64,000 bases of DNA from Lachnospiraceae bacterium (GTDB lineage: Bacteria > Bacillota > Clostridia > Lachnospirales > Lachnospiraceae): contig JAFSBX010000061.1 of assembly GCA_017437065.1 (NCBI GenBank), positions 1 through 64,000 on the forward strand, given 5' to 3'. Below are positions 4,013 through 51,658 of the stretch, piece after piece (the first letter of the stretch is position 1; every line of letters starts with the position of its first letter). A program made the position numbers and the translations under genes. The notes beneath the pieces are model-generated. The model did not search any database. It saw nothing but the letters and a program-made list of their open reading frames with translations, and was not told where the DNA came from.

Positions 4013-6250
4013 ATGGAAGAAAAAATTATAAAAACAGAATATTCCGAGGTCATGCAGAAATCCTATATTGATTATGCCATGAGTGTTATTGTTGCCAGAG
4101 CCCTTCCGGATGTAAGGGATGGTTTAAAACCCGTACAGAGAAGAGTATTATACGATATGCACGAGCTGGGAATCCGTTTTGACAAACCTTACCGTAAAAG
4201 TGCCCGTATCGTCGGCGATACGATGGGTAAATATCACCCACACGGCGACAGCTCCATTTATGATGCCCTTGTAGTGATGTCTCAGGACTTTAAAAAAGGA
4301 CTTCCTTTAATAGACGGACATGGTAATTTCGGTAACATCGAAGGTGATGGTGCTGCTGCCATGCGTTATACGGAAGCAAGACTGCAAAAAATCACACAGG
4401 AAGCATTCCTTGCAGATTTAGATAAAGATGTTGTAGACTTTATGCCAAACTTTGACGAAACGGAAAAGGAACCCAGTGTACTTCCGGTAAAAATCCCGAA
4501 TCTTTTAATCAATGGCTCGGAAGGTATCGCCGTTGGTATGGCAACCAGCATTCCGCCTCACAATCTGGCAGAAGTGATTGATGCAACAAAAGCTTACATG
4601 AAAGACGAATCCATTACCACAAAAGAGTTGATGAAGTACGTGAAAGGACCGGATTTCCCAACCGGTGGTATTGTTATTAATAAAGATGATCTTTTAAACA
4701 TTTACGAAACAGGAACCGGAAAAATCAAAATCCGCGGAAAAGTAGAAATCGAAAAAGCAAAGGGCGGAAAGACCAACCTTGTAATTACCGAAATCCCTTA
4801 TCCGATGATTGGTGCCAATATTTCCAAATTTCTATCCGATGTGGCTGCTTTAGCAGAATCAAAGAAAACACAGGATATCGTGGATATTACAAACCAGTCT
4901 TCCAAGGAAGGCATCCGTATTGTCATAGAGCTTCGTAAAGACACAGATGTAGAGAATTTCAAAAATATGCTCTACAAAAAGACAAGGCTGGAAGATACTT
5001 TCGGTGTAAACATGCTTGCCATTTCAAACGGAAGACCGGAAACCATGGGATTAAAACGCGTGATTAAAGAAAGCGTGGATTTCCAATTTGCAGTTGCTTC
5101 CAGAAAATACAGCAACTTATTACAAAAAGAATTAGACCGCAAGGAAATTCAGGAAGGTTTAATCAAAGCCTGCAATGTCATTGATCTAATTATCGAGATT
5201 CTCCGTGGTTCCAAAGACAGAGCCATGGCAAAAGATTGCCTTGTGAATGGAAAAACCGACGGAATTAAATTCAAATCCAAAGGTTCACAGATTATGGCAG
5301 AACAGTTACATTTTTCCGAAAAACAGGCAAATGCCATTCTGGAAATGCGTTTATATAAATTAATCGGACTGGAAATTGAAGCCTTAATTAAAGAACATGA
5401 AGAAACTATGGCAAATATTTACCGTTATGAAGATATTCTGGCAAGACGTGATTCCATGGCACAGGTTATCATGAATGAACTTGATGCTATCAAGAAGGAA
5501 TTTGGTACACCTCGTAAAACAGTTGTAGAAAACGGCGAAGAGGCAGTTTATGAAGAGAAAAAGATGGAAGAAAAGGAAGTTATGTTCTTAATGGACCGTT
5601 TTGGTTATGCAAAAACCATTGACCTTCCCACCTACGAACGGAATAAAGAAGCTGCGGAAGCAGAAAATAAATATGTTTTTAAATGTAAAAATACAGGTCG
5701 TATTTGCATTTTTACAAACTTAGGACAGCTTCATACTGTAAAAGTAGCTGACTTACCATTCGGAAAATTCAGGGATAAAGGAGTTCCGATTGACAATATC
5801 AGTAATTTCAGTTCTGAAAAAGAAGAAATGGTATTTGTCACAAGCCAGATGTATTTGAATTTATACCGTGTTATTTTCGGTACAAAACAGGCAATGTTTA
5901 AAGTCGTAGATGGCGGAGAGTTTGATGTTGCAAAAAGAACCGTTGCCGCAACCAAACTTGCCGAAGATGATGAAGTAGTTTCCATTGCCATCATGGACAA
6001 TCTGAAAGATGTTGTTCTCCGTTCCAAAGACGGATATTTCTTACGCTTCCCTGTGGAAGAAATACCGGAAAAGAAAAAGGGTGCCATCGGTGTACGCGGT
6101 ATGAAACTGGGAGCAGGTGACTATATAGAGCAAATTCATTATACTTATAACGGCATGGAAGCACCTGTTACTTTTGACGAAAAAACAGTAGAAATCAGCA
6201 GAATTAAATTAATGAAACGTGATGCAAAAGGTACAAAACTGCGGCTTTAA
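4013..6250 (+). CDS. parC: Type IIA DNA topoisomerase, cleavage subunit (ParC-like)
   Basis: This 745-residue subunit cleaves and rejoins DNA. The catalytic tyrosine is Tyr-119 in [10 protein letters not shown]. The quinolone pocket reads [10 protein letters not shown], with Ser-80 and Asp-84 unmutated. The C-terminal beta-pinwheel begins near residue 520. At the place where gyrases carry QRRGGKG (after the first blade, [14 protein letters not shown]) there is no such box, and a degenerate [10 protein letters not shown] appears later. GyrA-box loss removes DNA wrapping in studied enzymes, so topoisomerase IV activity is the better guess. AAGGAGA precedes the ATG. The gene is certain; the ParC/GyrA choice is not. 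Confidence 0.85.
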
Positions 6251-9464: not shown

Positions 9465-10433
9465 ATGATTTATTTTTTTACGGGACAACCACAAGGATCT
9501 ATTGCCTTTATAGGCATTTTGGCAGCATTTATTTTAACCTGCTTTACAACATCCAAATTTGCAGATTTACTTCCAAAAGATTTAGGAAGAGATTTCGCAT
9601 TTGACGGTAAAAAATCTGCCGGGAAACCAAGAGGTGCAGGAATTATCTTTATTCTTGTTTTTTGCATTGTTTCCCTTGTATTCGGAAAAGTAGATTTAGA
9701 AAACAGCCTGTATCTGTTACTTGTATTTGCGGCAATGCTGACCGGATTTTTGGATGATGCATCCAAAGCACCTTGGGGCGAATACAAAAAAGGTCTTTTA
9801 GATTTATTGATTGCAGCAGGTGTTGCAGGCGTATATCTGTATTTCAATCCAAGCAGTATTACTTTCGCCGTTTTTGATTTCACTTTAGTAATACCTCCTG
9901 TTGTTTTTGCTATTTTGACCATGATTCTCGTATGGGGATCTATTAATGTTACCAACTGTTCTGACGGTGTAGACGGACTTTCCGGAACATTAACCATTAT
10001 TACAATCATGACATTTTATGTCATAGATATCATGCGTGGAACAGAAAGCAATATTACTTACTTTATTTTAATTTTCGCGGTTTGTATTTTAGGTTATTTG
10101 TGGTTTAATGCAACTCCGAGCAAGCTCCTTATGGGTGATGCCGGTTCCCGTGCCATGGGACTCTTTATTGCAGTAGCAGCATTAAAATCCGGCGATCCGC
10201 TTTTATTCATTCCGGCCGCATTTGTTTTGATTATGGATGGCGGATTGGGGCTGGTAAAAGTATTTTTACTTCGTTTCCTGAAAATCAGAATTCTGAAAAA
10301 TGTTCGTACACCATTACATGATCAGGCAAGAAAAGTATCCGGCTGGTCAAATACACAGACCGTATTCCGTTTTGCCATTATTCAGCTCGTTATCAGTATG
10401 GCAGTCATTTATATGGTGATAAACAGATTATAG
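9465..10433 (+). CDS. MraY-like phospho-N-acetylmuramoyl-pentapeptide-transferase paralogue
   Basis: This 322-residue polytopic protein of the PNPT family has FLDD (Asp-97/98), NCSDGVDGLSG (164-174) and MGDAGS (Asp-225), the Mg2+/UDP-sugar site residues. The cytoplasmic loop where MraY has HHHxE reads PLHDQARK (283-290), so two of three histidines are replaced. The gene lies outside any mur/fts cluster, directly after an amidase gene. It may be a lipid-I synthase variant or a paralogue acting on another sugar nucleotide. WecA/TagO-type enzymes also lack the HHH motif, but the GWSNTQTV end is MraY-like. The reading frame overlaps ylbJ tail-to-tail by 25 bp. Confidence 0.8.
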   Translation: MIYFFTGQPQGSIAFIGILAAFILTCFTTSKFADLLPKDLGRDFAFDGKKSAGKPRGAGIIFILVFCIVSLVFGKVDLENSLYLLLVFAAMLTGFLDDASKAPWGEYKKGLLDLLIAAGVAGVYLYFNPSSITFAVFDFTLVIPPVVFAILTMILVWGSINVTNCSDGVDGLSGTLTIITIMTFYVIDIMRGTESNITYFILIFAVCILGYLWFNATPSKLLMGDAGSRAMGLFIAVAALKSGDPLLFIPAAFVLIMDGGLGLVKVFLLRFLKIRILKNVRTPLHDQARKVSGWSNTQTVFRFAIIQLVISMAVIYMVINRL

Positions 10434-23823: not shown

Positions 23824-23865
23824 ATTGCCGTTTCTCTTTATTATTACATGAAACGGCAATTTTTT
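23824..23865 (+). terminator. Terminator after the small membrane protein
   Basis: ATTGCCGTTTC (23824-23834) pairs with GAAACGGCAAT (23850-23860) over 11 bp, followed by TTTTTT. It separates this gene from the radical SAM operon. Confidence 0.88.
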
Positions 23866-44130: not shown

Positions 44131-45192
44131 TTAATTATTACTTTTATTTTCTCTTAACCTCACAACTCTTGCTGCTTTACGACGTCTTTCATCCTCAATT
44201 GCAGCATAATGTTTACGAGTAGTATTAACATCCTTATGTCCTAATACATCCGCAACCAAATAGATATCTCCAGTTTCCTGATAAAGAGTAGTACCATAAG
44301 TACTCCTTAATTTGTGGGGTGTGATTTTTTTTAACGTTGTAACATTAGATGCATATTTTTTAACGAGATTTTCTACTGCACGCACAGAAATACGCCTGTT
44401 CTGCATGGAAAGGAAGAGTGCATTTTCATTTCCTAACTGTGGTATAACATGCTTTCTTTTTTCTAAATATTGCTTTAAAGCTTCCTCAACTTCATCACCA
44501 AAATAAAGCACCGTTTCATAACCACCCTTTCTACGGATTTTCATACCATTTGTCTCAAAATTTAAATCCGTAATATCCAAACCGACACATTCTGAAACAC
44601 GGATACCGGTGCCAAGCAGGAGAGTAAGAAGAGCAATATCACGAACCTTTGTTTTTTCATGGTATTTTGCCTGGGATTTCGTCAGTTTCTCTCCATCCTC
44701 CACCATATCCAATAATGTTGCTACTTCATTAGGTTCCAGACGAATAATTTCTTTTTGATGCTGTTTAGGCAACGGGACAAGTACAGCGGGATTTTTTTCA
44801 ATTAACTCATTTGAATAATAGTAATTGTAGAAACTCCTTAAAGATGCCAGTTTCCTTGATTTTCCCCGTTCCTTATTACTTATTTCCCTACCTTCTTTTT
44901 CATATAGACTTACATGCTCCACATATTCTTCAATATCTTCTCTGGATATTCTGTCCAAAACAGATAGTGGGAAATCTGTTATATCCATTTTAGAGCATAC
45001 ACTGTTATTTTCATGTAAGAACTCAAAAAAGATACGTAAATCATAAGCATATGCAAGTCTGGTTCTACTGGATGTAGTTTCCTCAATACCTCTAAAAAAT
45101 GCCTTGCAAAATCCGGGAAGCTCCTTAACAATTTCCCTCATTTTCAATATATTTTTTTTATCCTGTTCATCGTGATAGTTATGATTTTCCAA
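44131..45192 (-). CDS. Tyrosine recombinase (XerS/XerC-like)
   Basis: This 353-residue integrase has the core-binding domain in residues 1-145 and the catalytic domain in 155-340. The catalytic set is Arg-198 (TGIRVSE), a Lys near 222, His-293 and Arg-296 (PHKLRSTYG), His-319 (LGHKDV) and Tyr-329 (KHYA). Length and the long N-terminal region suit XerS, the single-recombinase type acting at dif-SL. A phage-type integrase is less likely, as no phage genes are near. It overlaps the TtcA-like gene by 14 bp. Confidence 0.85.
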   Translation of the reverse strand: MENHNYHDEQDKKNILKMREIVKELPGFCKAFFRGIEETTSSRTRLAYAYDLRIFFEFLHENNSVCSKMDITDFPLSVLDRISREDIEEYVEHVSLYEKEGREISNKERGKSRKLASLRSFYNYYYSNELIEKNPAVLVPLPKQHQKEIIRLEPNEVATLLDMVEDGEKLTKSQAKYHEKTKVRDIALLTLLLGTGIRVSECVGLDITDLNFETNGMKIRRKGGYETVLYFGDEVEEALKQYLEKRKHVIPQLGNENALFLSMQNRRISVRAVENLVKKYASNVTTLKKITPHKLRSTYGTTLYQETGDIYLVADVLGHKDVNTTRKHYAAIEDERRRKAARVVRLRENKSNN

Positions 45193-47555: not shown

Positions 47556-48011
47556 ATGCGATTATTAATACAAAGAGTACAATATGCTAATGTAACTGTT
47601 AAAGACGAAACAATCGGTTCCATAAAGAAAGGTTTTTTGGTATTTATAGGTATCAGCAACACAGATACCAAAGAAGTTGCAGATAAAATGCTTCGTAAAT
47701 TATTAAATTTACGGCTTTTTGAAGATGAAAACGGCAAAACCAATTTAGATATCAATCAGGTTGACGGTGAAGTTTTACTTGTTTCACAATTTACTTTATA
47801 TGCAGACTGTAAAAAGGGAAATCGCCCATCATTCATAAAAGCCGGTACGCCAAATGAAGCAAACGAATTATATCAATACATGATTGAACAATGTACCAAA
47901 GAACTTCCTAACAAGACTGCCTGCGGAAGTTTTGGAGCTGACATGAAGATTTCCTTATTAAATGATGGTCCATTTACCGTGATGCTGGATTCTGATGAAA
48001 TATTTACCTAA
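47556..48011 (+). CDS. dtd: D-aminoacyl-tRNA deacylase
   Basis: This 151-residue enzyme removes D-amino acids from tRNA. SQFTLYADCKKGNRPSF (about 79-95) has the SQFTL motif, and NDGPFTVMLDS near the end replaces the usual NxGPV segment. MRLLIQRVQYANVTVKDE is the canonical start. TAGGAGAAGAG precedes the ATG. The gene once ended before a terminator now displaced to 49274. Confidence 0.94.
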   Translation: MRLLIQRVQYANVTVKDETIGSIKKGFLVFIGISNTDTKEVADKMLRKLLNLRLFEDENGKTNLDINQVDGEVLLVSQFTLYADCKKGNRPSFIKAGTPNEANELYQYMIEQCTKELPNKTACGSFGADMKISLLNDGPFTVMLDSDEIFT

Positions 48012-48015
48012 ATTA

Positions 48016-48048
48016 TGCCTTTCACGACCCAACTATTCGTTAAACTTT
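48016..48048. repeat. 33-bp direct repeat, left copy
   Basis: The stretch from ATGCCTTTCACGACCC to TTCGTTAAACTT is identical to 49263-49295. It carries the left arm of the terminator at 49274 but not the complementary right arm. A few bases of further similarity follow, as TTTTGC and GAAT. The copies are 1,247 bp apart. Confidence 0.8.
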
Positions 48049-48097
48049 CCCTGTTTTGCGAATGCCGTAGCAAAGGTATGGTATACCTTTGTGGAGT

Positions 48098-48147
48098 GCC
48101 GTCAGTGGAGAGGATGCAAAAATCCGTTCCTCTGACTGGCTTTTTTA
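48098..48147 (+). terminator. Terminator-like hairpin within the tract
   Basis: GCC.GTCAG...AGGA (48098-48114) pairs with TCCTCTGACTGGC (48128-48140), with an internal bulge, and is followed by TTTTTT. If readthrough from dtd enters the tract, it would be stopped here. Confidence 0.6.
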
Positions 48148-48501
48148 TTTCCGTGGTTTTGCCAAAGCAAAACTTAGGTTCAACGTAAAAAAGCTATGCA
48201 AGGATTTTTTCATTCTTGGAACGCAGAGTTGCTACGGTAGCGGAATTTACTTCCGCGTGAGTGCTTAGCAACTATTTGCAAAACCTCCAGTTTAACGGTC
48301 GGCAGACGGAAATAGTTGGGGAACTCTTTAGCCAATACCGCAGATTGGGAAGCGGTTGCGTAGCACTTCTGAACCCCTTTAGGGGTGTCTTTCCGCGGAG
48401 TAGAGCTGACCTTTCGGAAACTGCCAGTCACTTTCTCCGAAACTAAAACACATCTTTCATTCTGCCTGTAATGCTGATTTTCAGCCGATAAACTAAGGTG
48501 G

Positions 48502-48604
48502 TTAAAATAAGGGGTTGCAACTGGTTGGTCTGGCACGCGGAACTGTCTTACACTTTTCCTGTAACTTTTTCCGCGTGAGGGAAAGTTGCAACCCCTTATT
48601 TTAA
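48502..48604. repeat. Long inverted repeat with a nested stem
   Basis: Twenty bases at 48502-48521, TTAAAATAAGGGGTTGCAAC, are exactly complementary to 48585-48604. Inside, ACGCGGAA (48535-48542) pairs with TTCCGCGT (48569-48576). Both stems can form together, giving a two-level hairpin. Confidence 0.8.
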
Positions 48605-48810
48605 TTACCGCATATTGCCACTCTGAAACTTTCTATTTGCCCCAAATTTTAATTTTTCGGTGGGAGAGTGGTATTTTTCCCACCGAAGTATCTTTTTCTC
48701 AAATTTGAGCCTTATACGCGTTTACTGGTTCTGCATAACTTAACCCTGTCTTGTATTTTTATGCATATTACGCTAAGATAGTTTTATGCATTGATTTATT
48801 TATCCCCTAT

Positions 48811-48962
48811 TTCTGACGGTTGGGTACAACGCTTGCCCTTGCACTTAGGGGTGCACGGAGTAGCCTGTGGCGGTCAAGGTCAGCAAGCGTAGCGTGACCT
48901 TGACAGGCACTTGCAACGGCAGTGCACGGGTTCATGAGTGCAAGGGTACTTAACCGTCAGAA
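48811..48962. repeat. Multi-level nested inverted repeat
   Basis: Outer to inner: TTCTGACGGTT (48811-48821) with AACCGTCAGAA (48952-48962); CCCTTGCACT (48836-48845) with AGTGCAAGGG (48937-48946); GTGCAC (48851-48856) with GTGCAC (48922-48927); GTCAAGGTCA (48873-48882) with TGACCTTGAC (48895-48904), extended by GCC/GGC. All nest in one 152-nt fold. Confidence 0.8.
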
Positions 48963-49117
48963 GTTCCTAAAGCCTAGTATTACCTTTAGGAACAGATTTG
49001 TACCAAAATGCCCTAATCCTAATAGGGGCATTTTGGTTCTGATTTGTATTTTATGATTTTGACAAAAATGTACCATCGTCCCCTAAATTCTAATAGGGGG
49101 ACGATGGTGCAGATTTG
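48963..49117. repeat. Three consecutive hairpins, two sharing an apex
   Basis: GTTCCTAAAG/CTTTAGGAAC (48963-48993), ACCAAAATGCCC/GGGCATTTTGGT (49002-49037) and ACCATCGTCCCCTA/TAGGGGGACGATGGT (49072-49108) follow each other. The last two share a CCCTAA-to-TAATAGGGG apex while their outer stems differ but remain paired. GATTTG follows each one. Confidence 0.8.
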
Positions 49118-49262
49118 CAATATTAGTTATTTTATTTTTTATATTTTATTCTTGTTTTTTATTTATTTTTCAACGGAATTATTTTTCACATTTTCCAGTT
49201 GCGATTTCGCAAATTATCACGGATTGTGTTCATAAGCCGACAGAGGACTTATCCACCCTTAT

Positions 49263-49295
49263 ATGCCTTTCACGACCCAACTATTCGTTAAACTT
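49263..49295. repeat. 33-bp direct repeat, right copy
   Basis: Identical to 48016-48048. Here it continues into the intact terminator, so this copy is the original site and the left copy the duplicate, or the two mark the ends of an inserted segment. Confidence 0.8.
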
Positions 49296-49332
49296 GTCTT
49301 TTGCGAATAGTTGGGTCTCTTCTTTTTTTCTC
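49274..49332 (+). terminator. Intact plus-strand terminator, probably ancestral to dtd
   Basis: GACCCAACTATTCG (49274-49287) pairs perfectly with CGAATAGTTGGGTC (49304-49317) and is followed by TCTCTTCTTTTTTTC. On the minus strand there is no T-run, so it does not serve metE. Confidence 0.85.
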
Positions 49333-49351
49333 TCTTTACTCCATATTGGTT

Positions 49352-51622
49352 CTATAATTGATTTCTTACTATATTAGTTGCCTCGACCAGATTTTTCAGA
49401 CTGGCATCCGTTTCCTGTATACCTCTTGTTTTTAAACCACAATCAGGATTTACCCACAATTTTTCTTTATCAATTTTGACAAGCATTCTTTTCAATACCT
49501 CCACAATTTCTTCCACGGATGGAACTCTTGGAGAATGAATATCATAAACCCCTGGTCCAACTTCTGTTTCAAAATTACTTTCCTGAATTGCATCAAGTAT
49601 GGTGAGCTTTGACCGTGACGCTTCAAATGAAATCACGTCCGCATCCATATTATCAATATCTTTGATAATATCGTTAAATTCACTATAGCACATATGTGTA
49701 TGTATCTGTGTTTCCGGCTTTACACTACTATGACACAACCTGAATGCCGGAATTGCCCAATCAAGATATTCGCTATACCAATCACTTTTCCTAATAGGAA
49801 GTTTTTCTTTCAGTGCCGCTTCATCAATCTGAATAATACGAATACCTGCTTTTTCCAAATCATGAACCTCTTCCTTGATTGCAATTCCTATCTGATACGC
49901 CATTTCCTTTAAGCTTATATCTTCCCGTGGAAAAGACCAATTAAGAATTGTAACCGGACCTGTCAACATCCCTTTAACCGGCTTCTTGGTTAGACTTTGC
50001 GCATATGCTGAATATTCTACAGTAATTGGAGCAATTCTCTTTACATCACCAAATATTATTGGTGGCTTTACACATCTTGTACCATAGGACTGTACCCATG
50101 CTTTATCAGTAAATACATACCCTGCCAGATTTTCACCAAAAAACTCAACCATGTCATTTCTTTCATACTCACCATGAACCAGAACATCCAACCCTATCTG
50201 TTCCTGCTTCTCTATGCATTCTTTTATGAATGCATAGATCTTATTATCATATGCATTTTTGTCAATTTCACCTTTCCTATAATTACTGCGATTCTTTTTC
50301 ACTTCCTGCGTTTGTGGGAAAGAGCCAATCGTAGTGGTAGGAAGTATTGGCAATTCCAAAACTTTTTTTTGCACATTCAGTCTTATTGCATGTTCCGGTT
50401 GCCTGATAAAATCTTTTTCTGATAGAGCAGCAACCTGCTGTCTTACCTCTGCATTCTGAAAAAATCTTTGCTGTTCAAATATTTTCTTATTATCAACATA
50501 TGCTTTCTGTTCTTTATAATTATCACATTCAGTTAATACACTAATTTCCTGTAATTCTTGCAACTTTTCCAATGCAAATGAAAAATATTGCTTTACTTCG
50601 TCTTTTAAAATGTTTTCATTTTCGAGTGTATACGGTACATGCAACAACGAACATGATGTCGATAATACAATTCTATTTGCATATTTTTTCAAATCACTAA
50701 GAGTAACTATTGTTTTCTCATAGCTACATTTCCATATATTTTTTCCATTTACTAACCCTGCAAAAAGAACTTTTTCCTTTGGAAAACCATGCTTTTCAAC
50801 TAATGTCTTTGTATGTTTTCCTTCCAAAAAGTCCAATCCGATTCCATCAAAATTTAAAGTGACAATATTGTCATAACAATCTCTGACATCACCAAAATAA
50901 GTCTGTAATAACACCTTTAGTTTTCCCTTATTTTCCAAAATCTGATTATATAGCGTTTCAAACAAACAGATATCTTCTTTTGTCAAATCTGTCACAAGAG
51001 CCGGTTCATCAAACTGAATCCACTCTGCCCCCAAATCATCAAACTTTTTCAAAATTTCTTTGAAAGCTTTAACAATCGAATCTATATAATCGTTTGCTGT
51101 TTTATTTCTCTGATATTTTGCAAGTTTTAAAAATGTAAATGCTCCAATCAATACTGGCTTTGTCTGTATCCCTGCATTTTTTGCCTCAAGATATTCTTCA
51201 AACGGTTTATTTCCACTAAGTTTAATTTGTGTATCCTTTTCAACTTCCGGTACAAGATAATGATAATTTGTATTAAACCATTTCTTCATTGCAAGTGCCG
51301 GAGCATCACCAGCCTTACCTTGATATCCTCTTGCCATTGCGAAATAGGTATCCATTTCATTCAGCTTGAGTTTTTTATAACGTTCCGGTACTACATTCAA
51401 TAAAACTGCTGTATCAAGCATATTATCATAAAAAGAAAAATCATTTGATGAAATATACTGTACTCCGGTTCTTTTTTGCCATTCCCAATGTTCCTTTCTC
51501 AACCCTTTTGCAATTTCCAGTAATTTCTCTCTGTCTATTTCACCACGGAAATACTTCTCGGAAGCAAATTTTAATTCTCTAAGTTTCCCCACTCTCGGAA
51601 AACCAATTACTGCACTTTGCAT
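49352..51622 (-). CDS. metE: Cobalamin-independent methionine synthase
   Basis: This encodes 756 residues on the minus strand. ATG 51622 has GAGGAGG seven bases upstream, while the ATG at 51628 is too close to it. The protein is a duplicated barrel; the C-terminal half has IHTHMCYSEFNDII and VNPDCGLKTRG with the zinc-binding His, Cys and Cys. It methylates homocysteine from methyl-tetrahydrofolate. There is no SAM riboswitch upstream; the LysR gene next to it is the likely regulator. Confidence 0.96.
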   Translation of the reverse strand: MQSAVIGFPRVGKLRELKFASEKYFRGEIDREKLLEIAKGLRKEHWEWQKRTGVQYISSNDFSFYDNMLDTAVLLNVVPERYKKLKLNEMDTYFAMARGYQGKAGDAPALAMKKWFNTNYHYLVPEVEKDTQIKLSGNKPFEEYLEAKNAGIQTKPVLIGAFTFLKLAKYQRNKTANDYIDSIVKAFKEILKKFDDLGAEWIQFDEPALVTDLTKEDICLFETLYNQILENKGKLKVLLQTYFGDVRDCYDNIVTLNFDGIGLDFLEGKHTKTLVEKHGFPKEKVLFAGLVNGKNIWKCSYEKTIVTLSDLKKYANRIVLSTSCSLLHVPYTLENENILKDEVKQYFSFALEKLQELQEISVLTECDNYKEQKAYVDNKKIFEQQRFFQNAEVRQQVAALSEKDFIRQPEHAIRLNVQKKVLELPILPTTTIGSFPQTQEVKKNRSNYRKGEIDKNAYDNKIYAFIKECIEKQEQIGLDVLVHGEYERNDMVEFFGENLAGYVFTDKAWVQSYGTRCVKPPIIFGDVKRIAPITVEYSAYAQSLTKKPVKGMLTGPVTILNWSFPREDISLKEMAYQIGIAIKEEVHDLEKAGIRIIQIDEAALKEKLPIRKSDWYSEYLDWAIPAFRLCHSSVKPETQIHTHMCYSEFNDIIKDIDNMDADVISFEASRSKLTILDAIQESNFETEVGPGVYDIHSPRVPSVEEIVEVLKRMLVKIDKEKLWVNPDCGLKTRGIQETDASLKNLVEATNIVRNQL

Positions 51623-51658
51623 AATCATTCCTCCTCATCAACTTCGTTTTTTTCTATA

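Follow-up and report, generated by a model that had tools for sequence, protein, structure and literature searches.

The window, that is, the whole stretch of 64,000 nucleotides that was analysed, belongs to a Lachnospiraceae MAG with 5.6% contamination (GCA_017437065.1, contig JAFSBX010000061.1; here G000, other genomes and loci being referred to by G and L numbers). It contains a tract at 48012-49351, located between dtd (47556-48011, forward strand) and metE (49352-51628, reverse strand) and bracketed by a 34-bp direct repeat, the two copies of which are 1248 bp apart. The element unit is taken as 48048-49295, 1248 bp in length, and is present as a single copy in its own genome according to a repeat-family search. 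G000 contains two DnaA-type genes, on contigs C27 and C129, which may reflect the contamination.

The preliminary description of this tract as gene-free holds. The longest open frame is 108 amino acids, and five frames of 57–108 amino acids (those of 40–46 being left out) show no Pfam or PHROGs match at E<=1. The element contains no Rep, coat or Zot genes, and the remnants of inovirus genes that were sought in it are absent as well, the best match having an E value of 0.37.

The tract is densely structured. It contains seven non-overlapping perfect hairpins (stem of at least 8, loop of 3–20), whereas the 90 other 1340-nt tiles, half-overlapping, into which the window was cut hold 0.92 on average and 3 at most. 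Across 47900-49450 there are 24 inverted-repeat pairs of at least 9 nt, many of them long-range. The stretch 48048-49261 folds at -434 kcal/mol, as compared with -328 +/- 8.7 kcal/mol in 60 dinucleotide shuffles (z -12.1). When 510 half-overlapping 250-nt segments of the window are ranked by structure with correction for GC, the first four, and six of the first seven, fall inside the element. Both measures confirm the excess of inverted repeats noticed in the preliminary description, in which at least fourteen were counted, a figure that depends on the threshold. The GC content is 40–48% over 47875-49124 versus 28–40% in the flanking segments, and the final 250 bp of the tract are AT-rich. The features are listed in Table 1.

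Table 1. Features of the element and its surroundings, by position in the window
Feature	Position	Strand	Remarks
Xer-like tyrosine recombinase gene	44131-45192	-	PF00589, E 7e-34
Left copy of the 34-bp repeat	48014-48047	+	Right half is the left dif arm
attP1 (predicted)	48028-48063	+	Outer arm 48028-48046, unpaired TTCCCT 48047-48052, inner arm GTTTTGCGAAT 48053-48063
attP2 (predicted), inner side	48274-48320	+	Inner arm ATTTGCAAAAC 48274-48284, unpaired CTCC 48285-48288
attP2 (predicted), outer arm	48289-48297 and 48311-48320	+	AGTTTAACG and AATAGTTGGG, pairing with attP1
Long inverted repeat	48497-48609	+	26-nt arms, 92% complementary, 61 nt apart
Perfect 10-bp hairpin	48656-48687	+	Terminator-like
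Compound hairpin	48811-48962	+	Motif pair TTAGGGGTGC at 48845 and GCACGGGTTCATGA at 48924
Putative rolling-circle origin stem-loop	48963-48993	+	10-bp stem, loop CCTAGTATTAC, contains TAGTATTAC
Twin hairpin 1	48992-49047	+	Loop TAATCCTAATAG
Iteron-like TGTACCA	48999-49005	+	Beside the origin stem
Twin hairpin 2	49063-49117	+	Loop similar, stem different; contains a second TGTACCA at 49069-49075
Right copy of the 34-bp repeat	49262-49295	+	In L365, its TTnACGACCC part likewise forms the right end of the element
Chromosomal dif (putative)	49282-49309	+	TATTCGTTAAA-CTTGTC-TTTTGCGAATA, within hairpin 49274-49317

The right end of the element falls in a site made of two inverted 11-bp arms around a 6-bp centre. 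Searched as TATTCGNNAAA-N6-TTTNGCGAATA with up to two mismatches, the pattern is found in 136 of the 250 family genomes searched, versus 27 of 250 for the reversed control, mostly at one place per genome and with variable centres and differing flanks. Because this conserved sequence sits among differing flanks, the reading of the right hairpin as a terminator was rejected. Two one-contig genomes, G155 and G140, allowed dnaA and the site to be located together; the two lie 50.3% and 38.2% of the chromosome apart, respectively, and the terminus location of the site is thereby supported by these two genomes only, by one of them loosely. Homologues of the Xer-like recombinase are found at seven of the ten relatives' dif loci that were searched. 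In the same genus, G002 shows dtd followed by the site, and G001 shows dtd, one further frame and then the site, both lacking the element. In view of the pattern conservation, the dnaA distances, the nearby Xer-like gene and the empty sites of the congeners, the site appears to be a working dif, and the product of the Xer-like gene would be the expected recombinase for dif and for the element.

The element is inserted at chromosomal dif, with dif-derived sequence on both sides, and has no integrase of its own, as is characteristic of IMEX. Neither the 34-bp direct repeat nor the identity of the right hairpin with chromosomal dif was part of the preliminary description. The analysis also yields a dif consensus for Lachnospiraceae, which can be used in IMEX searches. 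Partial inverted dif half-sites are seen to the left of dif in G001 (L005) and G074 (L018) and are candidates for accessory Xer sites or for scars of past integrations. A dif-like site in L361 (2003-2191), located ~156 bp from the true dif with a hairpin in between, is possibly the scar of a similar element.

The left end is predicted to fold, as single-stranded DNA, into a fork. The fold of 48028-48320 consists of a 19-bp outer arm, an unpaired TTCCCT/CTCC centre and an 11-bp inner arm, with energies at z -6.3 and z -6.6 in two computations, and in this model the left end is a two-armed mimic of dif, a dif-like duplex with an unpaired centre similar to the attP of CTXphi. Nine regions were folded in the same way. 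In seven of them (the window, L365, L244, G331, L290, L363 and G225) the fork is the structure of lowest energy, as it mostly is in G330; in L368 it is not. The outer arm in G225 pairs with the dif-derived arm. The inovirus L244 possesses a fork of identical architecture, and the deposited circular inovirus PQ006124 (L541) contains both the fork and an origin stem-loop of the kind described below.

A 17-bp copy of the element's right end lies to the left of the left arm, a feature not accounted for by simple integration; it may be left over from an earlier tandem insertion. By eye, direct repeats extend into the flank also in G034, G225 and L368, and the left flank of L365 shows no copy of its right end.

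The nonanucleotide TAGTATTAC in the loop at 48963-48993 is what is expected of a CRESS-type replicon, and the Rep gene that such a replicon would have is absent from the element. In 200 shuffles of the window, TAGTATTAC together with a stem of at least 7 did not occur. When compared with five opened inovirus records, the 31-nt stem-loop is 90% identical to PQ006184 (L545), with an E value of 9e-5, where AAAGCCTAGTATTACCTTTA lies inside an interrupted stem. The placement of TGTACCA beside the stem resembles that of TGTCGCA-type repeats at several phage and inovirus origins, which by analogy would suggest an iteron. The scan for TAGTATTAC-type hairpins also gave two hairpins with other nonamers, at 23824 of the window and in L139.

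Among the loci first compared, exact-TAGTATTAC hairpins with a stem of at least 7 were found beyond the window copies only in L280, an inovirus (Zot, E 9e-8), and in L367, a fragment that is inovirus-like, in both cases just upstream of a Rep that contains PF02407 Viral_Rep and PF00910. A search with the L280 Rep gave 25 loci (L392-L416) in 23 of 397 Lachnospiraceae genomes, some of them duplicates (L394 is the same as L367, and one hairpin is common to L400 and L401). An origin-type hairpin precedes Rep, on the same strand, in 17 of these 25 (exact TAGTATTAC in 13, one-base variants in four), and eight show no such upstream hairpin. The stems differ among loci. The CRESS Rep is also found in six deposited ‘bajarodino’ records, and the five that were opened are all circular Inoviridae, four of which gave a TAGTATTAC-type hairpin in the scan. 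An inovirus Rep family with an S3H motif, iPF_00203, appears in a passage of Roux et al. 2019 (PMC6813254), and TAGTATTAC is given as common to nanoviruses, with TAA/GTATTAC as the begomovirus satellite origin motif, in a passage of PMC12193555. As judged from its sequence, the structure at 48963-48993 is a rolling-circle origin stem-loop like those of CRESS-type Reps.

The twin hairpins that follow the origin were also read for a pT181-type nick motif; a scan with CCCTAN{2,8}CTAATAGGGG gave a mixture among the matches listed.

The preliminary description had offered an RNA locus as one possibility, and a large structured non-coding RNA gene would indeed have dense stable hairpins. No Rfam family reaches its gathering score anywhere in the window. 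Promoter-like sites (3 versus 2.6) and terminator-like sites (3 versus 1.7) are near the level of shuffles, the structured parts match the attachment site and origin of phages, which act at the DNA level, and the site is empty in both congeners, G001 and G002, all of which makes an RNA gene scarcely credible. The one sub-threshold match, to RF03070 ‘ssNA-helicase’ (31.6 bits, gathering score 41.5), coincides with the origin stem-loop. Like the element, RF03070 has a hairpin with the loop UAGUAUUAC followed by tandem repeats, and the element suggests that RF03070 itself may be a rolling-circle origin. A scan of 250 genomes for RF03070 with strict filters returned no match, that of the window included, and its controls were silent. 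Among the kinds of structure that had been listed initially, a folded single-strand recombination site is represented here by the Xer/dif-type fork and a replication origin by the stem-loop, while attC has dropped out.

Filamentous prophages at dif sites are described for marine Vibrio in a passage of PMC11630473, and inoviruses are also found at the dif of Lachnospiraceae. In a survey of 80 dif loci, where L300 is not a dif locus and 12 others have at least three mismatches to the consensus, inovirus proteins were found at three (G034, G225 and G112). G034 and G225 contain prophages with Zot (PF05707) and related genes between the site copies, and at G112 a Zot-like match lies 2.5 kb away from the site, with a CRESS Rep farther on in the same contig. 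The prophage of G331 shows attP1 at 4554, dif at 9580 and Zot with E 8e-44 (tblastn). In G330, the prophage between dtd and dif contains the fork, a Zot-like ATPase that falls short of the Pfam cut-off and a G2P-type Rep, together with coat-like and ssb-like proteins that were labelled by eye and, where searched, gave no family match. The IMG/VR contigs with dif arms include the inoviruses L213, L235, L244, L257, L258 and L280. In L204, inovirus proteins are accompanied by a AACTATTCGTTAAAC match that falls short of a full dif site. Further gene-free elements may be among the gaps between genes that exceed 500 bp next to the site (L066, L303, L308, L333, L340, L342, L353 and, on its left side, L061). 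In the inovirus L244, positions 5118-5177 match the type-P1 twister ribozyme at 56.5 bits, against a gathering score of 67.2.

Two sets of motifs were considered as packaging signals. The TTAGGGGTGC/GCACGGGTTCATGA pair of the compound hairpin recurs in an intergenic stretch of the inovirus-like prophage of G330, scoring 23 of 24, where 30 shuffles reach at most 22 and the reverse-complement control reaches 22, and is thus a weak candidate for a packaging or replication signal. Two Zot relatives gave it no support, one viral scan returned nothing, 397 genomes gave only the window, and four IMG/VR matches to its right half are all in other contexts. A second hairpin, with the loop GCAnCGCnGGGGGG and differing stems, is seen upstream of Rep in three inoviruses (L077:14016, L280:5913 and L541:1792) and in the CRESS-Rep locus L392 (1087). 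It is a candidate packaging signal of the CRESS-Rep inovirus group, and this loop is absent from the tract. No convincing packaging signal is found in the element.

An attP1 scan of 84,980 species genomes gave 11 loci, which comprise two gene-free candidates (L365 and L368, the only other ones found), three inoviruses or inovirus-like loci (L360, L362 and L367), the Rep_3 plasmid-like L370 and five others (L361, L363, L364, L366 and L369). L370, on an Oscillospiraceae contig (1250-5103), contains two Rep_3 genes and dif-like sites 2.6 kb apart, similar to pdif-module plasmids.

L365, from a Lachnospiraceae MAG of a goat, has a spacing of 1316 bp between attP1 and dif with no credible gene in between, its three longest frames (78–105 amino acids) having no Pfam or PHROGs matches. 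Compared pairwise with the window, it is 75% identical over 132 columns to 48225-48352, which comprises attP2 (E 1e-16), and 92% identical over 48 nt at the right end and over 38 nt at attP1, the interiors being different. The two short matches are made up largely of dif arm, so the informative part, and the real evidence of homology, is the attP2 block. In a search of 397 family genomes with this block, in which two candidates per genome were scored, only the window and G387, of another genus, were found, the latter at C28:2723-2851, which is presumably L365's own place since the coordinates coincide. A search of 195 relatives, scored in the same way, gave matches outside the own genome only within 1092-1339 of the query, in the AT-rich stretch or the dif end, and direct BLAST relatives in phages or plasmids are absent. 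Homologues of the tract are few but real. On the two points named in the preliminary description as counting against it, a known Rfam family and a lack of homologues, the outcome is mixed, given the sub-threshold match to RF03070. L368, with 746 bp between dtd and dif and two overlapping frames of 169 and 172 amino acids that have no significant matches, is a distant candidate for a gene-free element. Neither L365 nor L368 contains a TAGTATTAC-type hairpin, and therefore both would need other Reps.

The main rival explanation is that the element is the dead remnant of an inovirus prophage at dif, from which all genes were lost by internal deletion, leaving the attachment site, the origin and the hairpins and no helper-dependent life. 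Its layout, with the fork at one end and dif at the other, is that of the inovirus prophages of G330 and G331; only integrated copies are seen and no helper was found in the genus. Against such decay stand the intact fork and 10-bp origin stem, the extreme folding (z -12), the absence of gene remnants and the second gene-free element, L365, which is similar in size and homologous at its ends. The deleted-prophage reading is considered unlikely.

In the search for a helper within the genus, the Rep (E<=1e-10) and Zot (E<=1e-5) of L280 were unmatched in G000, G001 and G002. G000, the sole genome scanned for other types of Zot, gave two weak Pfam matches (E 0.037 and E 0.13), the first of which needs its neighbours to exceed the family cut-off and is PhoH-like by eye. 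A Pfam Zot match in G327 (E 3e-4) is likewise PhoH-like by eye and not that of an inovirus. A search for the origin combined with TGTACCA gave at least 120 loci, with a stem of at least 6 around TAGTATTAC in none of the matches listed.

The helper could also be other than a phage, the element then being a satellite of a plasmid or integrative element with a CRESS-type Rep, spread by conjugation or transformation. Integrated pCRESS plasmids that lack capsid homologues are described in a passage of Kazlauskas et al. 2019 (PMC6668415), and the coat and Zot content is known for a minority of the loci behind the Rep of 23 of 397 family genomes. The combination of a fork attP and a CRESS origin in the deposited inovirus L541 speaks against this, as does the fact that the closest origin matches among the opened records are Inoviridae, and a non-phage helper is regarded as quite improbable.

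The undescribed structured element of the preliminary description is therefore best seen as a mobile element at dif. Its location at dif, the predicted attP fork, the putative origin stem-loop, the absence of genes and the homologous gene-free element of L365 suggest that 48048-49295 is probably a protein-free single-stranded DNA element and a natural, helper-dependent satellite of an inovirus. We infer that it would be replicated in trans, packaged and active at present. In the proposed cycle, a helper inovirus with a CRESS-type Rep would enter the cell, and its Rep would nick the TAGTATTAC loop at 48963-48993 and copy the element by the rolling-circle mechanism. Through pairing of attP1 with attP2, the released single strand would fold into a dif-like duplex, which the host Xer recombinase, by analogy with CTXphi, may join to dif. 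The coat and secretion proteins of the helper would then carry the circle of the element to new cells.

It is proposed in addition, with somewhat less assurance and as a view that is favoured on balance, that bacteria have agents similar to deltasatellites, in the form of a natural family of protein-free single-stranded DNA satellites at dif. These would use the host Xer through a single-strand fold and depend on filamentous phages for both CRESS-type Rep and virion, being composed wholly of cis-acting DNA structures. Surveys of genomes and viromes would overlook such agents, because gene-based finders of mobile elements are blind to elements that have no genes. The element also makes the minimal needs of an integrating virus-like agent testable. 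Among the titles and abstract openings listed by searches of the open PMC literature on inovirus satellites, inoviruses at dif, integrated CRESS plasmids and non-coding phage satellites or miniphages, none describes a protein-free natural satellite of this kind.

The system may be compared with several known ones. RS1, a companion of CTXphi, is a filamentous-phage satellite that carries genes. As a putative satellite of a filamentous phage at dif the element is similar to RS1, and unlike RS1 it contains none. The M13 miniphage is not known to have an attachment site. Unlike the element, it is laboratory-built and possesses an M13-type origin, and the element, if interpreted correctly, would be its natural version. 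In a passage of PMC10480500, the origin and packaging sequences of this miniphage, 221 nt, are said to suffice for packaging with a helper.

Two palindromic attP sites of CTXphi pair on single-stranded DNA and imitate dif, as described in a passage of PMC5357621, where RS1 is named alongside. The element resembles this IMEX type of attP in its two inverted dif-like sites predicted to pair on a single strand, the lack of an integrase gene and the use of the host Xer site, and differs in that its attP sites are ~210 nt apart, as opposed to 90 in CTXphi, and in that it has no phage genes. With the CRESS-Rep ‘bajarodino’ inoviruses it shares the TAGTATTAC origin stem-loop, and with PQ006124 also the same attP fork; these viruses are 5.7–10.2 kb long with annotated Zot, Rep and further genes, in contrast to 1.25 kb and none. 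The Zot/pI ATPase and coat genes that mark the Inoviridae are absent from it.

Begomovirus deltasatellites encode no protein, have a stem-loop origin with TAA/GTATTAC and depend wholly on a helper for replication (a passage of PMC12193555). The element likewise encodes no protein and contains a nonanucleotide origin. Unlike the element, deltasatellites have a eukaryotic helper, a size of ~700 nt and no known integration by a recombinase, and the comparison with these Tolecusatellitidae is one in kind only, the host of the element being a bacterium. If the proposed reading is true, the element corresponds, in bacteria, to the DNA satellites of plant viruses that encode no protein, with an origin of the same class.
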